This document shows, piece by piece, positions 8,156 through 28,016 of a DNA stretch of 51,893 nt. Under the pieces are notes generated by a model, which did no database searches, was not told where the DNA came from, and saw nothing but the letters and a program-made list of their open reading frames with translations. The stretch's first letter is position 1. The number at the start of each line of letters is the position of its first letter. The translations under genes were made by a program, and so were the position numbers. Origin of the DNA: Crocinitomicaceae bacterium. GTDB taxonomy: Bacteria > Bacteroidota > Bacteroidia > Flavobacteriales_G > Salibacteraceae. The stretch is taken from contig PAJI01000026.1 of NCBI GenBank assembly GCA_002705995.1, forward strand, positions 47,580 through 99,472, given 5' to 3'.

Positions 8156-8989
8156 TTATTGTTCAAATTCGGCCATAAACGGGGTGATAAACTTTGGATT
8201 ACTGGAATAAATGGCGAAAACTATTTTTTCAAACTGATGGGAAAAATCTGAAGTTATGACTTCCCTGAAATAAACAGCAATATCATTAGGGTCGTTTTGA
8301 AAAACACCACACCCCCAAGCACCAAGAACAAGTGTTTTGTGGTTGTTGGTGCGTGCAATGGCCAATACTTTTCGAATTCTTCGTTTCATTACTTGTTCAA
8401 CATCTTGCAGGCGTCCCGGTTCGCGGTGTTTTACCACACCTTTATTCACAGCAGGAGCAGTAATAATGGCGCAATGCATTTGTTGATTAAGGTTGTTGCC
8501 ATCTTCGTCTTTTATAATTGGGACAAATGGACTGTAGATCATATAATCTGTATACATACAAGACTTATGTTTACGATTGGTTTCGTAATAGCCCTGCGTT
8601 TTAATCTGACAGTTGTAAAGTCCGGTAGATCTGGCAATGCTTTCTTCCTGAGCCTGACTTCCTCCGAGAAATCCTCCTCCGGGATTTTTAGCAGAAGCAA
8701 AGTTGAGGCACAAAACATCTTCATGTCCTTCAGCAATGAGCATTCGAACAGCATCTAAAGTCGCCTGATTGGTAACGCTGATGTTTGTTTCAAAATCAGC
8801 CGTAGTGTAGGGGAGTTGTTTGAGCAATTCATCACTTTCTTCAGGTGTATAAACTTTGGTGAATTGCTCTGCTTTATGCTGTAGTTGACTAATGTCTATT
8901 TTTTTACCTGAAACAGAAGTATAAAACCCTTTGTCAAGAATTTGAAGGGTTTCTTCAGCAAGTTGTTTGCGGTATTCTCTATTGTTCAT
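8156..8989 (-). CDS. Microbial-type poly(ADP-ribose) glycohydrolase (TIGR02452 family)
   Basis: Predicted to hydrolyse ADP-ribose linkages in the cytoplasm. The 277-residue protein has the PARG signature: LNFASAKNPGGGFLGGSQAQEE at about residues 98-119, where GGG and the paired Glu are the catalytic loop. An N-terminal microbial PARG domain of about 90 residues precedes it. Length and motif agree with the TIGR02452 group. Another ADP-ribose-binding (macro) protein lies 1.4 kb away on the same strand, and kptA is 8 kb away. Confidence 0.88.
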   Translation of the reverse strand: MNNREYRKQLAEETLQILDKGFYTSVSGKKIDISQLQHKAEQFTKVYTPEESDELLKQLPYTTADFETNISVTNQATLDAVRMLIAEGHEDVLCLNFASAKNPGGGFLGGSQAQEESIARSTGLYNCQIKTQGYYETNRKHKSCMYTDYMIYSPFVPIIKDEDGNNLNQQMHCAIITAPAVNKGVVKHREPGRLQDVEQVMKRRIRKVLAIARTNNHKTLVLGAWGCGVFQNDPNDIAVYFREVITSDFSHQFEKIVFAIYSSNPKFITPFMAEFEQ

Positions 8990-12088: not shown

Positions 12089-12103
12089 TGTACAATTCGT
12101 TAT
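12089..12103 (-). repeat. Internal end-like site in the repressor 3' end
   Basis: TGTACAATTCGTTAT matches the right-end motif at 13 of 15 positions and has the right-end orientation. It overlaps the stop codon of the repressor gene. It may be a third left-end transposase site in inverted orientation, or an internal regulatory site. Confidence 0.55.
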
Positions 12104-12837
12104 CTGCGCATGCGTTTGCGCTGGAGTTCAATAATGTTGAATATCCTATCAATATCCATTAAATTGACAGTGATATCATCGTAATAATCATTTAAAGAGT
12201 GCAGAGTGATATCTCCAGTATCAACATTGTGTTTGGTGATTCTCTTTACAAGTATACCATCAGTTTTATGTACTATAACGAAATCCCACTTATTGATGTG
12301 GAGCTTTGATTTCCAGTACTCTTGCTTAACGTTTCGGCAGAGGATTACATCTCCTTCAATGTAGCCGTCATCTTGACCATTATCCATTGAATCACCTTTA
12401 ACTTCAAAGCAGATATACTCTCCTTTATACTCTTTATCTACTATAAATGGAACTTTTGGGAGTTCTTCAATAAAATATTGATCAGCAAATCCTTTCATGT
12501 AGCCAGCGTGAGCATATTGATTAACCAAAGGTACTTCCATAACCCTATGAGATATAGGGGCTACAGCTTCATTTTTGCCGTATTCAGCTGTTGGTTCATT
12601 AGCTGTATTTTGATGTGTATTACTCTTTTTTCCCGTCAGAAGCCATTGGACATCAATATCAGGATATGCAGCTAAAATTTTAGCTATCATATCAGCTCCT
12701 AGCTCACTATAAAGCCCTTTTCCTTTAAAATTACTTGGTGAAGATTTAGTGTCACGGAAAAATTGAGCTTTCGAAATACCTTGATTATCAAGGAACTCTA
12801 TCATTCTTCGTTTCGTATGGGCTATATTTCGACTCAT
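12100..12837 (-). CDS. Phage repressor, XRE-type HTH plus S24 peptidase (LexA/CI-like)
   Basis: The 245-residue lysogeny repressor of the prophage. Residues 1-70 form a helix-turn-helix domain (KAQFFRDTKSSPSNFKGKGLYSE) and a WLLTGK motif typical of Bacteroidota XRE repressors. The C-terminal domain is S24: Ser150 in FEVKGDSMDNG and Lys198 in GILVKRI form the Ser-Lys dyad, with a candidate Ala-Gly self-cleavage site at residues 111-112 (HAGYMKG). It therefore looks SOS-inducible, unlike the Mu c repressor. It is transcribed leftward, facing the early operon. Confidence 0.92.
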   Translation of the reverse strand: MSRNIAHTKRRMIEFLDNQGISKAQFFRDTKSSPSNFKGKGLYSELGADMIAKILAAYPDIDVQWLLTGKKSNTHQNTANEPTAEYGKNEAVAPISHRVMEVPLVNQYAHAGYMKGFADQYFIEELPKVPFIVDKEYKGEYICFEVKGDSMDNGQDDGYIEGDVILCRNVKQEYWKSKLHINKWDFVIVHKTDGILVKRITKHNVDTGDITLHSLNDYYDDITVNLMDIDRIFNIIELQRKRMRR

Positions 12838-21793: not shown

Positions 21794-22330
21794 ATGGAAT
21801 TACTTACCGAAAAAGAACTGACTACCGAACTAGGTAAATCAGGTTTATTCAATACAAAAAAACTAGCTGGACAGTTGCACTATATTGGAGGCATTCAATC
21901 TCTTGATGAAGTTATTGGTGAAATCAATTTTCAAGTGCCTAACATTTGTAACCTTGAGATTAAACCAAAAGGGTTGGCTTTTTCTGTAATGCATAAGTTT
22001 AAGACTTTCCGAGTGGCCATACCTCAAGAGCAGATCACCAGCATTACATTAGAAGATAAAGAGCAGATATTTGAGAAGAAAGAAAAATCTATAATTGGAA
22101 GAGCTATTGTTGGCGGTGTATTACTTGGTGGCGTTGGAGCTGTTATTGGTGGTTTAAGTGGCCTTAAAGATGGCGTTAAAAAGGCTGAAATGCCTGATCT
22201 GTTACTTTCGATTGAGTTAACTAATGGAAGCCAAAAACAAGTGGTTGTTTGCTCTTGCAAATACAAGGATAAAACCAAGGTTATCCAGTTTTTAGAATCA
22301 AACTTTAAGGAGGTTTTTAACGTTGCTTAA
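21794..22330 (+). CDS. Glycine-zipper membrane-associated protein, possible moron
   Basis: A 178-residue protein with a glycine-rich hydrophobic hairpin at about residues 100-128 (GRAIVGGVLLGGVGAVIGG), preceded by a beta-rich segment (residues 48-85) resembling a PH-like domain and followed by another. Such proteins are widespread and mostly uncharacterised. It lies between its own promoter and a strong terminator, outside the structural operons. That arrangement fits a lysogenic-conversion or superinfection gene, but no function is shown. Confidence 0.55.
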   Translation: MELLTEKELTTELGKSGLFNTKKLAGQLHYIGGIQSLDEVIGEINFQVPNICNLEIKPKGLAFSVMHKFKTFRVAIPQEQITSITLEDKEQIFEKKEKSIIGRAIVGGVLLGGVGAVIGGLSGLKDGVKKAEMPDLLLSIELTNGSQKQVVVCSCKYKDKTKVIQFLESNFKEVFNVA

Positions 22331-22387: not shown

Positions 22388-22925
22388 ATGCTTTCAAAGT
22401 TGTTGTTATTGTAACATCAGGTGTTACTTTTTGGTATTGCTTCATCCGTGATAAATCACGAAGGAGGATGTTAAATAACAAGCGTGTTGTTCTTATTTCA
22501 AAGTGGTTATGATCATGCCGGGTATTTACATGTTTCACTTTGTCAAAATGATCTGCACGTGAGGCTTCACACAATTCAACAACTCTATCCAATTCATCCA
22601 TCCACGCAAGGCCAGCATCTTTAATTACTGGAGCTGTGTTTGAGTTAATGTCCTGATGTTGTTCTTGAATGATAACCAGCTCAATTTTGGTATATGCTTC
22701 TTTCATTTTAGCACCTCTATATTCCCAATCTATATCTGTAGGAAATGAAAGGAATACAGCTGGAAATGGAAACGTATCAGGTTCTTCGTCATTATTATTA
22801 TCACGCTGAATAATATCTTGATCTTGTTGGTTGTACCAATCAAAATGAGCCATAACAGCTGGTTTGTCTTCTTGCTGCTCGGTAAGCACGGCCATAAGCG
22901 AGTTGTAAACTTCTTTCTCAATCAT
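22386..22925 (-). CDS. Phage structural protein, possible tail terminator
   Basis: A 179-residue protein, last gene of the minus-strand packaging operon and overlapping the gpG-like gene by 4 nt. Predicted mixed alpha/beta with a hydrophobic start (EKEVYNSLMAVL). The position after gpG and the size suit a tail terminator or head-tail joining protein (Mu gp37-like role), but no motif proves it. Confidence 0.45.
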   Translation of the reverse strand: MIEKEVYNSLMAVLTEQQEDKPAVMAHFDWYNQQDQDIIQRDNNNDEEPDTFPFPAVFLSFPTDIDWEYRGAKMKEAYTKIELVIIQEQHQDINSNTAPVIKDAGLAWMDELDRVVELCEASRADHFDKVKHVNTRHDHNHFEIRTTRLLFNILLRDLSRMKQYQKVTPDVTITTTLKA

Positions 22926-23479
22926 TGTCCTAAGAATATTTCATCAAGTGAATCAAAAATGTGTTGTTCTAATTCATCATATGCAGGTTTTGCATCTGAG
23001 AAAATTTGTCGTTTCGGTAGGTTCATTTTTCGGCTGTGAGACTTTACTTCAATAGCTCCAGTTTCACGCTTTACGGTTTTCTTTCTCGTTTTACCAGTTC
23101 TAGTGGTATACTCCTCTTTGCTGGTTTTGAATCGCTTTCGTTTATGCGCTTTAACTTTCACAGTTCCTTCAAAACCTTTGTCATGCGCCTCAAAGTAACT
23201 GACATCTGTAACCACACGAGCTTCGTCACGAATTGGTGCTGCCTTGAGTGATCTTCGCATTCTTCCGCTTTTCTGAAGTATGCCTCTTGATCCACCTTTT
23301 TTGCAAGGTTTCCATTTGTGAAAACTTCCATTTTCATCATAGTAGCCTTCTTTGCGAAAGTGCTCTTCAAATTGGTTTGCGAAAATCTCACTTGCTACCA
23401 ATGGCAGCTTTTCTCTGAACCGATTGTACTTAGGCAACGATTTGGAAAACAGAATATCACGAAACTTTTTGTCTGCCAT
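22922..23479 (-). CDS. Virion morphogenesis protein, Mu gpG-like
   Basis: A 185-residue protein of the phage virion morphogenesis family (Mu gpG / P2 gpS type), involved in tail completion or head-tail joining. The conserved pattern is ILQKSGRMRRSLKA, then VSYFEAHDKGFEG, a basic insertion rich in Lys/Arg, then MNLPKRQIF. It follows the portal fusion gene after a 97-nt structured gap. Confidence 0.75.
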   Translation of the reverse strand: MADKKFRDILFSKSLPKYNRFREKLPLVASEIFANQFEEHFRKEGYYDENGSFHKWKPCKKGGSRGILQKSGRMRRSLKAAPIRDEARVVTDVSYFEAHDKGFEGTVKVKAHKRKRFKTSKEEYTTRTGKTRKKTVKRETGAIEVKSHSRKMNLPKRQIFSDAKPAYDELEQHIFDSLDEIFLGQ

Positions 23480-23500
23480 AATTCGTATATTTGTTTCGAG

Positions 23501-23579
23501 TAAGGATTTAGTCCGGATAATAACCGTTCAAGGCAATGCAAAGCGGTGAATACCTCAAATCGGGCGGATTAATTCCTTA
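23501..23579. repeat. Long-range inverted repeat between portal and gpG genes
   Basis: Arms at 23501-23515 (TAAGGATTTAGTCCG) and 23565-23579 match at 13 of 15 positions, around a 49-nt interior that can form a smaller ACCG/CGGT stem. One arm contains the stop codon of the portal fusion gene. It could be an RNA element tuning expression across the operon. Confidence 0.5.
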
Positions 23580-26054
23580 CTTTTTTATTACCAATCCTTT
23601 TCTGAATGAATCTTGGCTCATTTTACCTTTATACCATGTCTTCAAATCGAATCCATATTTAGATATTTCAGCATTCACAACCATTGTTTCATCGTTGTAA
23701 TGTTTCACAAAGTTGTATTGGAACTTACCAATCTTGTATTCGTTCAACCACACTTCATCAGGATTTTGTAAAATGCTTTTTACGTTTGAATAAATACGTT
23801 GACGTTCCTCGTTATCATTGACATATTTGCCTTTTAGATGATCATCTAAAACATTTCTACTCACCGCAACATTACGACCGCTGTAGTCTTTTAACAGCAC
23901 TCTTTTTTGTCCGTTGTATTCCTGGGCACTCTTATCGAAATTCTCTAAAATAGATTGAGCCGTATCTTCTGATTTTGGCAACTTGTTTTTTTGCAGTTTT
24001 CGAAGAGTTGCAGAAGATTCAAGTCCTGCATCTTGGTAGGTTAATTTACTTATTGGCTTTTTACCGTTACTAGGTATTTGATCAACATAAGCTTGATTCA
24101 AACGCCAAATTTCATTGGCCTCGCCCTTGTTGCCATAGAAACCGCCTTTTTTCATTCGGCTCAGTTCTTCATCTCCCATTGCGGCAATAGCATCACTAGC
24201 TTTACTGATTCCAATTTTAGTTGCTTGCGCTTTGGTTAACTTTCTCAAGCTGCATCTACATCCATATCCATTTGGTGGTACAAAACTGCCTGCTGACTTA
24301 TCTGAAACAGAGAATACTTTACCATCTAAATCAGCGTGTGAGCTTCTTACATGGCTATCTCCAGCAGTTGTATATTGCCAGTAAGGAAAAGTTTCTTGAT
24401 TGGCTTTTATGTCGTTCCAACGCCTTGCATTTTGGCTAACTGCAATTGCTTGATTATACTCCGTTTCAAGGTATGAATCAAACTTACCCATCACAAGCAA
24501 AGCTTTCTTTTTAAAGTCGCTGTAATTCTCAGAAATATCAAGAGCTTGGTTCAATTCATAGATCAATCCCAATGATTTGTTCCAGCCAAAACGGTGCATG
24601 TTCATCTCTAACATTAAACCGCTAATATGGTCGGGTTCATTGTAGCTGGTACCTACACTCAAGTTTGATCTGATAGCACCACCAAGGCGTTGAAACCATC
24701 TACTTAATACCGCTGGTGAATACGATGCGGCAGTTCCATTGAATAACTCATCAATCAATTTGTTTTCATCTTGATTGGGAGTGTAATTCATTTCAATATT
24801 TGTTCCCGGTGGTAGTATGTAATTCATCGGGTTCAAAGAGTTTTCAGGCTCAGGTTCAGGCTTTGGATCACCGCCTCCATCTTCATCATCCTTTTTAGTT
24901 TGTTCCTTGGTTTTTTTGATGGCTTGTTTTGGAGGATCACAGTTGAATGTTTTATACCACCAAGCATCTTCAATTGGAACTTTAGAAGCCACTTTAATGG
25001 CCACATCAATGAACTTTTCTATCGGTAAATTTTCGGTTTCATCAAAATGGAATCGTCCTTTTGGAGGATTAATTCCAAGGTTAACTAACTTGTCTTTGAA
25101 CTCCCAATTCAAATGGTATTCATACTCGATCATATCTGCAAGTATGATCTCAGATTCCACTTCTTTATGAACTTCAGATTGGCTTTTTGAGCTACCGTTA
25201 TCTGTGGTCATGGTTTGCCCTAAGAAGATTTTACTCATTTCGGAGTTGCACATCTCAATTAGATCATGGAAAACTTCACTTTTACCAGCTGAATTGGAGT
25301 CTTTGAATTCAATGTCAGTTTGGCGTGGGATAGCCGCATAAGCTGCACCCCCCATATTTTCTAACTCTGTTAAAAGCTGTTTTCTACCTTCTTGATCCCA
25401 GCCTTCATACTTCCCGATTCGGAATGGCATACCGAATATCTCAGCAAATTGTGCCCAATCTCCAAAGCCTCCACGTTTGTAAATTACGTATTGCGCAGCT
25501 TTGAAAAGTTTTCCAAATTCAGCTCCCCCAAAAGAAAGCAACGTTCTAGAGTAGCTTGGATCATCCTCATAGTAAATGAAGTCTTCTCGGTTGTTTTCAT
25601 CCCACAACAATTTCCCTTCTTCAGGTATCATCAATTTCCTGTTTATTTTTTTGGTTTTTGAAATGATACCATTTTTAATAATTAATTCGGCTATTGTTGC
25701 GCCCCATACAGGACGTTCACTGAAAGCTTTGGTTAAGTCATAGAACCAAGGTGTTTGAACTACATTGTCACGCATGTTTTCATCTTCCTTACCATCTTCA
25801 AGCGAATACTTGATTCGTTTGTTAGATAGGGCTTTCATTCGCTTATCCGTTACCGAATCAAGGTGGCCATCAATCAAAATGTTTTCAAATAAATCTAATA
25901 ATAACCGTCTATCAGGTCGGGTAACACTACGAGCAGTATTTATTGCTTTGACAACATGTGATATATCTTGAGATTTTAGAATGTTTTGACGAACATTAAT
26001 ACCTCTTGATGTGAATGATTTACCGATTCGTGCGCCTAAATTTTGCTTTGCCAT
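23577..26054 (-). CDS. Portal (DUF935/gp29) - MuF head protein - BECR-type nuclease fusion
   Basis: An 825-residue fusion. Residues 1-370 are a Mu gp29-type portal: GKYEGWDQEGRKQLL, IFLGQTMTTDNGSS. A Lys/Asp/Gly/Pro-Glu linker (380-405) leads to a MuF/SPP1 gp7 domain (about 420-610) ending in the hallmark PPNGYGCRC (593-601). Residues 690-825 form an extra domain: VLDDHLKGK with His739, NPDEVWL, FVKHY, TWYKGK, resembling phage-associated barnase/EndoU/colicin E5/RelE (PBECR) nuclease domains. In Mu, portal and MuF are separate genes. The C-terminal module could be injected with the DNA. Portal and MuF calls are firm; the nuclease call is moderate. Confidence 0.85.
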   Translation of the reverse strand: MAKQNLGARIGKSFTSRGINVRQNILKSQDISHVVKAINTARSVTRPDRRLLLDLFENILIDGHLDSVTDKRMKALSNKRIKYSLEDGKEDENMRDNVVQTPWFYDLTKAFSERPVWGATIAELIIKNGIISKTKKINRKLMIPEEGKLLWDENNREDFIYYEDDPSYSRTLLSFGGAEFGKLFKAAQYVIYKRGGFGDWAQFAEIFGMPFRIGKYEGWDQEGRKQLLTELENMGGAAYAAIPRQTDIEFKDSNSAGKSEVFHDLIEMCNSEMSKIFLGQTMTTDNGSSKSQSEVHKEVESEIILADMIEYEYHLNWEFKDKLVNLGINPPKGRFHFDETENLPIEKFIDVAIKVASKVPIEDAWWYKTFNCDPPKQAIKKTKEQTKKDDEDGGGDPKPEPEPENSLNPMNYILPPGTNIEMNYTPNQDENKLIDELFNGTAASYSPAVLSRWFQRLGGAIRSNLSVGTSYNEPDHISGLMLEMNMHRFGWNKSLGLIYELNQALDISENYSDFKKKALLVMGKFDSYLETEYNQAIAVSQNARRWNDIKANQETFPYWQYTTAGDSHVRSSHADLDGKVFSVSDKSAGSFVPPNGYGCRCSLRKLTKAQATKIGISKASDAIAAMGDEELSRMKKGGFYGNKGEANEIWRLNQAYVDQIPSNGKKPISKLTYQDAGLESSATLRKLQKNKLPKSEDTAQSILENFDKSAQEYNGQKRVLLKDYSGRNVAVSRNVLDDHLKGKYVNDNEERQRIYSNVKSILQNPDEVWLNEYKIGKFQYNFVKHYNDETMVVNAEISKYGFDLKTWYKGKMSQDSFRKGLVIKK

Positions 26055-26055
26055 C

Positions 26056-26475
26056 TTAGTAATGATTTACTCTTTTGGGATTCGACTTGATTTCAATTAC
26101 AGTGTTGTTTTCAGTGGTTTCTTTTAAGGGTAATTCGAAGGGGTCACGTTCTCCATCACGCACGTTTTCTAACCACTCAATAGCACGTTCATAAGCATCA
26201 GTTCTATACTTTGGTATTTTGCGTGGATTGTGTCGTTGATGGATAAGAAATAAGGTGATGTCTTTACAAGACAATACCACGCTATTATGACGATCTTCAC
26301 CAGTGGCCGAAAAGATGGCGGCAACATCGTATCTGATGTTTAAATAATCTGACATTAAACTGATGGCTTCACCTTCAGCTGTATCAATTATTGAATCATC
26401 AGCTTCAGTAATTGCATCTAACACATAGTTTTTGATCACCGTGCTGTAGTCTGTTTTTTCAAGAAATGCGCTCAT
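26056..26475 (-). CDS. Mu gp36-like (DUF1320) head-tail connector protein
   Basis: A 139-residue protein matching the gp36/DUF1320 pattern: an acidic helical start, SLMSDYLNIRYDV, then VVLSCKDITLFLIHQRH, then YRTDAYERAIEWLENVRDGE. Members act at the head-tail interface. In Mu, gene 36 follows the capsid genes; here it lies between terminase and portal. Overlaps the terminase by 4 nt. Confidence 0.8.
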   Translation of the reverse strand: MSAFLEKTDYSTVIKNYVLDAITEADDSIIDTAEGEAISLMSDYLNIRYDVAAIFSATGEDRHNSVVLSCKDITLFLIHQRHNPRKIPKYRTDAYERAIEWLENVRDGERDPFELPLKETTENNTVIEIKSNPKRVNHY

Positions 26476-28016
26476 AGTTTATGTTTCGATTTGTGACGTC
26501 TGCCAGTTTCAACGCCTCCAGTAATATTGCTGACTTGTTCATTGATTAGACAAATTGCTCCTTCTGTTGCATCCGGACCATCTTTTTCGTTGTTGCGAAC
26601 TCCCTTTTTAAAGTTTGTGAATTGCTTGATTAATCGCTTAGTGTATCGATCTTCTTCAAGTGACTTATCAAACCACACTTTTCCACGTTCGAAGTACCCA
26701 GCAATGTTGCCAATACGTAAATCCTTATCGGGCTTTTTACGTTTATCACCAATCATCGGAATGCGGAATCCGTATTCTTTAATTGCATCATCAAAATGAT
26801 CGTGAAGCAATCCCAACAAAAACACTTCTTCCATAAACCACACAGCAGTAGCATTTTTCTGTTTTAGGTAGTTCCATAGATCATAATGCCAAGCAATCAT
26901 TCCACCAATGCTGGTATTGTCAACATATGCTTTATGAATGTGGTATTCGCCCTCCATGAATCCGACTAAAACAAGAGCTTTGGTATCAGATGTTTTGGTT
27001 TTTTTGAAGCCACCATCTAGGTATGCAATGAGGATTTTATAGCGTGATAATGGAGGCAGTTTTTTGAATTGCATCCATTCTTTTTTGAACTCTGTACCCT
27101 TGGCTTTTGGATCATTCAAATACTCAGTGTCTGCTTCGTCTTCAGCAAGAATGATCATTTCTTGACATTGCTTGTCAGTATATGCTTCAGGCCAATTACT
27201 TCTGCCTTCGCTATCAATAAGATTTACAGTTATACAAAGAGCTGAGCCTTTGAAATTGGCTTTTGCATGTTTCCACATTCGCTCAATGATGCAGTCTTCA
27301 GCAATCTTGTTGTTGAGGAAAAGAACACGCTTTTTTCCGCTAACGTGCATAGCAGGGAAACAGTCACCTAAAACATACTTCCAATTCTTATCTAATCTTG
27401 CAGGATTTTCACATACTTCAGGATGGTCGAAATCATCAAAGATTTCAAAATCAAAACGATCAGAATCTACAGTTTTACCACCACGAGGAGATTGGCCAGC
27501 TCCAAACGCAGCAAACTTAACACCGTCAATGGTTGTGAATTTCTTATCAGACCAACCGCTTACACCTCTTCTGTTGCCAAAGTCAGCAATTAAACGTTCA
27601 TTCTGCTCTAAGGCTATTTTAACGGGTGCGAGTAAGTCTATAGCTTGGTATTCATTGTAACTGAACATGGCTAAAGACTTGAATTCGCCATTGAAGTACA
27701 AGAAAACAATGAGTAATGCGGTAACTGATGATTTAGCCATATCACGAGCTACTTTAATAACAGCAATATTCAGGTCATAATTTACCTCAATTAAATACTT
27801 GGTGAACTTTTTATGCCACTTAGCAAATTTTGCTTTTGTTATCCTTGGGAAATAGTAATAAGAGAACTCTTCAAAATTGCCAAGCAAACGTTTAATGCGT
27901 TTGTGTTTTTCAGTTTCGTTTTCATTCAATGAATCATCTACTGGAGTAGAAAAACTGTTTGAAAACTCTTGCCATCGTTTGAGAGCTTCCCTGTCTTTTA
28001 GCTTGGTTAGTCTCAT
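26472..28016 (-). CDS. Terminase large subunit (Mu gp28-like)
   Basis: The 514-residue DNA-packaging motor. The ATPase has a Walker A-like VARDMAKSS (residues 89-97) and a Walker B FDFEIFDDFDHPE (188-200). The C-terminal RNase H-like nuclease begins ILIAYLDGGF with a metal-binding Asp and ends near NEKDGPDATEGA with another. Headful packaging from the inserted copy is expected for a Mu relative. Overlaps its neighbours by 1-4 nt. Confidence 0.9.
   Translation of the reverse strand: MRLTKLKDREALKRWQEFSNSFSTPVDDSLNENETEKHKRIKRLLGNFEEFSYYYFPRITKAKFAKWHKKFTKYLIEVNYDLNIAVIKVARDMAKSSVTALLIVFLYFNGEFKSLAMFSYNEYQAIDLLAPVKIALEQNERLIADFGNRRGVSGWSDKKFTTIDGVKFAAFGAGQSPRGGKTVDSDRFDFEIFDDFDHPEVCENPARLDKNWKYVLGDCFPAMHVSGKKRVLFLNNKIAEDCIIERMWKHAKANFKGSALCITVNLIDSEGRSNWPEAYTDKQCQEMIILAEDEADTEYLNDPKAKGTEFKKEWMQFKKLPPLSRYKILIAYLDGGFKKTKTSDTKALVLVGFMEGEYHIHKAYVDNTSIGGMIAWHYDLWNYLKQKNATAVWFMEEVFLLGLLHDHFDDAIKEYGFRIPMIGDKRKKPDKDLRIGNIAGYFERGKVWFDKSLEEDRYTKRLIKQFTNFKKGVRNNEKDGPDATEGAICLINEQVSNITGGVETGRRHKSKHKL

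Follow-up and report, generated by a model that had tools for sequence, protein, structure and literature searches.

Could a phage portal protein that ends in a nuclease-like domain deliver an injected toxin and, if so, what would protect the cells carrying its gene? This question is raised by the portal-MuF-PBECR2 fusion gene (23577..26054, minus strand) of a Mu-like prophage in a 51,893-nucleotide stretch, hereafter the window, from a Crocinitomicaceae bacterium (contig PAJI01000026.1). In current thinking, temperate phages inject MuF toxins as weapons, a delivery and a role that still await proof. The original prediction, made from the sequence of the window, had described the gene product as a candidate injected toxin followed by no separate immunity gene. 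With respect to proteins this held: the 97-bp gap between the fusion gene and the following gpG-like gene contained no coding open reading frame (ORF). However, a predicted RNA gene was found there on the opposite strand, and this RNA partner is what the original prediction missed.

Catalytic residues and the predicted opposite-strand RNA

By profile, the C-terminal domain of the fusion protein (residues 714-821; 23592..23915, minus strand) belongs to a BECR-type nuclease family, as had been proposed from the sequence (PF18810, PBECR2, 53.7 bits against a curated cut-off of 27.1, E value of 3e-14). It was modeled with a predicted local distance difference test score (pLDDT) of 94.5. Both predicted catalytic residues are retained: His739 (23838..23840, minus strand) closes the N-terminal helix (733-739), and Thr806 (23637..23639, minus strand) lies within strand 4 (801-810), as judged from alignments and confident models; the catalytic scheme, like the promoter assignment below, rests on established descriptions. 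The motifs quoted in the original prediction (PPNGYGCRC, His739, NPDEVWL, and TWYKGK) are all present. Among 90 non-redundant PBECR2 domains, 72 had both His and Thr/Ser, 12 had neither, and 6 lacked His only, whereas none had lost Thr/Ser alone (Fisher test for the association of His with Thr/Ser, 7e-11). His was thus gone in 18 of 90 domains, which amounts to at least nine losses when mapped on the portal-MuF tree, each of them going the same way as the change in Thr. Related portals without the active-site residues, which the original prediction had held to speak against a toxin, therefore do exist, but since their losses of His accompany the loss of Thr/Ser and of the neighboring RNA described below, they argue for activity in the remaining domains, which from their sequence are predicted RNases. 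Glu767, Arg818, and Gly820 were invariant in all 90 domains, the His-less ones included, and the PDEVW core persisted together with R818 and G820 whatever the catalytic state. NPDEVW is thus conserved also in domains without the catalytic pair, so that His739 stood as an active-site residue but NPDEVWL failed as a marker of activity. Where the catalytic Thr was lost, it had repeatedly been replaced by Asp (loci L056, L059, L061, L062, L073, L084, and L178).

The Bacteroidota -7 promoter box has the sequence TAnnTTTG. In the window, one such box (TATATTTG, 23486..23493, plus strand) reads toward the effector gene from the far side of the gap, and it was invariant throughout the clade of the window. 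In relatives, the opposite strand of the gap likewise begins with TAnnTTTG adjoining the start of the following gene, and the putative RNAs often end in a terminator-like hairpin at the stop codon of the effector. An opposite-strand box was present in 38 of 50 PBECR2 gaps (2.7 expected; none on the sense strand) and in 19 of 20 gaps behind other effectors. When non-redundant loci were compared by a test based on one promoter motif and estimated gene starts, the box occurred in 74 of 76 loci with intact His and Thr/Ser versus 1 of 20 with either residue lost (p = 7e-17). It was also found in 23 of 27 non-redundant loci with non-PBECR2 effectors, and in two effector-less loci, in gaps of almost 1 kb, while the other six effector-less loci had none. 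In Flavobacteriia, where a different gene follows, the rule still held: intact domains were followed by gaps of 97-338 bp with a box, and four inactive ones by gaps of 0-35 bp without. Phylogenetically independent pairs all pointed in the same direction (6/6, p = 0.031).

The intergenic ORFs of the window and its relatives, viewed as small peptides, had no common frame or composition, and no coherent ORF emerged. An immunity protein beside the effector was rejected, as the gaps contained no such ORFs and the variable genes downstream were not shared among near relatives.

Beyond the promoter box, 27 RNAs from relatives could be aligned to one fold, in which a closing stem (P1) encloses two hairpins and the loop of the first hairpin forms a pseudoknot with the 3' flank. 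All 11 pairs of P1 showed double-sided changes. Including the pseudoknot, 79.8% of cells were paired compared to 63.4 ± 1.2 after shuffling, and covariation was 0.469 compared to 0.205 in shuffled and 0.11-0.14 in slid controls. G-U outnumbered A-C pairs by 67 to 30, which favors the strand opposite the effector gene. When a covariance model (R1) was run over 93 loci (1 Mb), 18 matches outside its training rows reached E < 0.05, some of these matches being close relatives of each other; all 18 were at the expected site and strand adjoining intact domains, and at this threshold no match was obtained in inactive or domain-less loci. In surveys of the phylum and of the class, each covering ∼400 genomes, R1 identified three places. 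The first (L269) adjoined an intact MuF-PBECR2 protein, and the second (L266, G346:C4:791-901) a frameshifted PBECR2 remnant, the RNA having remained recognizable after loss of the effector. The third (L265, G048:C2:1522630-1522756) was an orphan match scoring 68.7 bits; it has a terminator of its own, and the stretch examined contained no PBECR2, so that it is possibly an orphan antidote in a host chromosome. Over 26 non-independent pairs, RNA identity rose with that of PBECR2 (rho 0.73) but showed no such relation to that of gpG (rho -0.01). Searches of 12 loci against Rfam 15 at the gathering score yielded no match, and the window and L245 gave nothing above chance level. No RNA partner of MuF or PBECR proteins was found in the literature searched.

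Two sets of gaps appeared to contain RNAs of other types. Those of L003, L067, L233, L235, L237, L238, and L243 (Porphyromonas gingivalis and Bacteroides phages) seemingly hold two RNA modules each, the second of which (TATCCAACCGTATG...GGACGGCGGACG) falls outside model R1. Behind CdiA_C-like or unknown effectors (L205, L207, L198, L244, L211, and L200), the opposite-strand box was accompanied by short hairpin-rich RNAs of another sequence type, which may be further cognate RNAs.

In the window itself, folding predicted a structured RNA at 23500..23586 (plus strand; ends inferred) in which a 15-bp stem encloses two hairpins and U6 follows. This stretch folded with -27 kcal/mol (z-score of -3.8; 0 of 200 shuffles), and the stretch 23490-23582 gave a z-score of -3.5. 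Most near relatives folded to the same outline with unrelated stem sequences (z-scores of -3.6, -3.3, and -2.9; -1.1 in L180), and the five RNAs of this clade were together too divergent beyond the box to be placed in a single alignment.

The exchangeable C-terminus and its genomic setting

The 825-aa ORF postulated at 23577-26054 proved to be real and uninterrupted, with the qualification that the minus strand encodes it; stop codons abound on the plus strand of this interval. Its three domains could all be assigned within one chain by Pfam, each above the curated cut-off: Portal_Mu (residues 53-371, homologous to Mu gp29; 24942..25898, minus strand; PF06074, 1.1e-66), Phage_Mu_F (residues 500-603, homologous to Mu gp30 and SPP1 gp7; 24246..24557, minus strand; PF04233, 3.8e-16; TIGR01641), and PBECR2. 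We recovered 76 distinct ORFs with the plain portal-MuF-PBECR2 order, in addition to split forms with a separate portal, and apart from one weak match their hosts, where named, were Bacteroidota. So many independent fused ORFs rule out an assembly or frameshift artifact. The fusion is, however, not the novelty it had been taken for: PBECR domains fused to MuF and portal domains are already known from Iyer et al. 2017 (PMC5512222). Searches with the lone portal-MuF sequence returned only the window's own phage, their patterns being too specific, and a nine-sequence portal alignment held no conserved stretch usable as a query.

In relatives recruited on the portal sequence alone, the part behind MuF consisted of PBECR2, a CdiA_C-like domain, LPD3, a weak peptidase-like domain, unknown domains, or nothing (one of the last, L174, being a truncated contig), which bears out the polymorphic C-terminus expected from the MuF toxin group. 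About 12 changes of C-terminal state were counted on the portal-MuF tree. Some phage pairs differed far more in PBECR2 than in the portal: nonsynonymous divergence (dN) was 0.008 for the portal versus 0.67 for PBECR2 in L192/L197, 0.003 versus 0.19 in L216/L218, and 0.007 versus 0.11 in the P. gingivalis-type phages L003/L067. In swapped pairs, the divergent block did not stop with the coding sequence but continued into the intergenic stretch of the RNA, ending in or before gpG. Among the nearest relatives of the window, PBECR2 was intact in L173, L175, L180, and L181, inactivated in L178 and L179, and absent from L176 and L177. The portal-MuF chain thus stays otherwise conserved while the C-terminal domain is variously swapped, replaced, inactivated, or lost; by its behavior, this domain is an exchangeable effector.

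The neighboring genes form a Mu-like head module with terminase subunits (large subunit, 26472..28016, minus strand; phrog_38, 5e-57), a gp36-like head-tail adaptor (26056..26475, minus strand; PF07030, 6.9e-9), and, as the next gene of the late operon, the gpG-like neck or tail completion protein (22922..23479, minus strand; phrog_26, 2.5e-10). As is characteristic of MuF polymorphic toxins, the MuF domain is located in the packaging module beside portal and terminase. The phage lies within a bacterial chromosome contig and corresponds to a called 33-kb provirus; together with an S24-type repressor-like gene at 12100-12837 of the window, this identifies it as temperate, as are the phages of MuF toxins. 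Close to the prophage, a predicted ADP-ribose glycohydrolase is encoded (8156-8989, minus strand; microbial PARG, PF10021, 2.2e-49). A 178-residue protein with a glycine-rich hydrophobic stretch (21794-22330, plus strand), whose gene is convergent with the end of the late head operon, matched only phage families of unknown function.

Proposed mechanism and alternatives

We consider it somewhat probable that the locus encodes an injected RNase-type effector and an RNA that serves as its antidote, the pair acting in a manner comparable to type III toxin-antitoxins. The late-expressed portal-MuF chain of the temperate prophage would carry the catalytically intact PBECR2 domain inside the capsid, and by virtue of the fusion each portal subunit would bring in one effector. 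In SPP1, the MuF protein gp7 reaches the capsid interior by way of the portal (PMC6316719), and for MuF toxins injection together with the DNA has been proposed (PMC5576092). The effector would probably be freed by cleavage or flexibility of the linker between the portal and MuF parts (residues 378-419; 24798..24923, minus strand), which has a pLDDT of < 50 in AlphaFold2 model md46b87f9eaba; if disordered, as is probable, this segment would permit cleavage or reach. Having entered a new host with the DNA, the effector would cleave an RNA of that cell. The part of an immunity protein would be taken by the small structured RNA between the effector stop codon and the next late gene, which would bind and block its cognate effector domain. 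Even with its late genes silent, a lysogen could produce this RNA, as immunity requires, since the RNA appears to have a housekeeping-type promoter of its own; protection would cover both lysogens facing incoming phage and the producing cell during assembly. Because RNA and catalytic residues are lost together and the RNA tracks PBECR2 rather than gpG, a cognate antidote fits best.

Several points weigh against this proposal. Because portal subunits are anchored in the capsid vertex, release and injection presuppose a further, hypothetical step. The BECR fold is unconfirmed, as the PBECR2 model had no match with E ≤ 0.001 among solved structures in the PDB; MqsR-complex chains were weak (ranks 13-14), viral models of polyvalent proteins and nucleases matched weakly (best E values of 0.002-0.06), and a PDB profile search with the PBECR2 domain alignment gave nothing meaningful, the P. 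gingivalis row having been left out of the structure jobs. The window RNA is not matched by R1 and is therefore supported by its box, position, and fold only, and the minus strand of 23500-23586 folds comparably (z-score of -3.6), as any long palindrome would. The structure of the 27 RNAs was fitted on the same alignment that was used for counting, and the pairs of P2, P3, and the pseudoknot were picked by eye with the alignment in view. Two loci with intact residues (L184 and L190) lack the exact box, and one scored as altered (L011, a doubtful call) has it. Moreover, since the box also accompanies most non-PBECR2 effectors, the rule may apply to any effector rather than to PBECR2.

Finally, the RNA could act on mRNA and not on protein. 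Such antisense control is the main rival: as an antisense or 3'-end regulator of the late mRNA, the RNA would set the amount of effector-portal instead of inhibiting the protein. Convergent type I antisense antitoxins such as RatA are well established, and the RNA here is indeed convergent, with its end overlapping the 3' end of the effector gene. However, it appears to end at the stop codon and hence leaves the start site and the bulk of the message uncovered, and silencing would also take away the portal, which the phage needs. A covarying pseudoknotted fold that is conserved while the sequence changes likewise speaks against this role, as does the excess of G-U over A-C pairs on the RNA strand, which is expected if the RNA's own shape matters. 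On balance we regard antisense control as unlikely. In another reading, the gap holds no functional RNA but an ordinary promoter and a bidirectional terminator, linked to active domains through cassette transfer only. This would agree with the strong palindromic hairpins at the stop codon in many gaps and with the joint movement of the cassettes. It appears improbable in view of the covariation over five helices, pseudoknot included, the model matches outside the training rows, the isolated genomic copy with its own terminator, and the repeated absence of the RNA upon loss of catalytic residues in independent lineages.

The remaining alternatives concern the domain itself. PBECR2 might mainly be a structural or RNA-binding domain of the virion, with the RNA as a partner in the particle (a scaffold, or an aid to packaging or ejection). 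A role of this kind has been proposed for the C-terminus of Mu gp30, which PMC5512222 calls inactive and for which the MuF_C match is no more than weak, and the invariance of Glu767, Arg818, and Gly820 indicates that a function independent of His and Thr persists. Yet the RNA is absent where His/Thr are lost and the remaining domain is kept, and a purely structural partner should not need catalytic residues, which leaves a structural role quite doubtful. An effector aimed at competing phages in the lysogen or during superinfection, rather than at the host on infection, had been raised in the original prediction, and PBECR domains have been proposed to serve in conflicts between elements (PMC5512222). 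We judge this highly improbable, because the gene belongs to the late packaging operon and its expression is not expected in a lysogen.

Comparison with known systems and implications

The injected effector with an RNA antidote resembles several known systems in part. The PBECR-MuF-portal fusions of Iyer et al. 2017 (PMC5512222) share the His plus Thr/Ser active-site scheme and the predicted packaging and injection; in the portion of that paper available, an RNA partner is not among the features described, whereas one is predicted at our loci, and neither paired loss of catalytic residues nor allele swapping on near-identical portals is met there. MuF polymorphic toxins (Jamet et al. 2017, PMC5576092; Apk2, PMC12226406; Bxa, PMC11699363) are alike in having a MuF carrier in the packaging module, exchangeable C-terminal effectors, and a temperate phage. 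They are, however, separate MuF proteins with small immunity ORFs downstream (89.4%, Jamet et al. 2017, PMC5576092), in contrast to the present fusion, which has the portal in the same chain and an opposite-strand RNA gene in place of the immunity ORF.

Type III toxin-antitoxins (ToxIN, CptIN, and TenpIN; PMC5086642) likewise combine a predicted endoribonuclease with a pseudoknotted small RNA and show RNA-protein co-evolution. Here, covariation supports the pseudoknot in the 27 relatives, the window RNA itself being without an R1 match. In contrast to the tandem repeat array of type III, the present RNA is a single larger unit, perhaps with two modules in some loci. It lies downstream on the opposite strand with its own promoter, whereas the type III antitoxin lies upstream in one operon, with a terminator between it and the toxin. 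No ToxN/CptN/TenpN-type toxin was detected by Pfam or PADLOC, the putative toxin here being the PBECR2 domain.

Mu-like phages of P. gingivalis (e.g., phage007a_Bg4, PP754929) have the same portal gene with an intact PBECR2 domain (H/T) and an R1-type RNA before the neck gene; the annotation of phage007a_Bg4 shows a portal protein only and places a 53-aa hypothetical coding sequence across the RNA region on the other strand. Phage Mu gp30 also combines a MuF domain with a C-terminal PBECR-like domain, but is separate from the portal gp29, and its C-terminal domain is called inactive (PMC5512222). As gp30 and gene G overlap, Mu has no room for the RNA, as the rule linking catalytic residues to the RNA predicts.

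It is conceivable, if somewhat short of probable, that these loci represent a widespread class in Bacteroidota phages, in which nuclease effectors fused to portal or MuF proteins are injected and immunity is provided by cognate, exchangeable opposite-strand RNAs, several effector types each having their own RNA and orphan copies residing in host chromosomes. Since effector activity and the small RNA are gained and lost together, the question of delivery and role becomes directly testable; relatives occur in phages of cultured Bacteroidota, and model R1 detects the RNA without reference to the toxin. If the proposed mechanism is true, immunity to polymorphic toxins can be an RNA, which searches for immunity genes would miss as long as they look for proteins, and lysogens would bear a kin-discriminating RNA as their mark.
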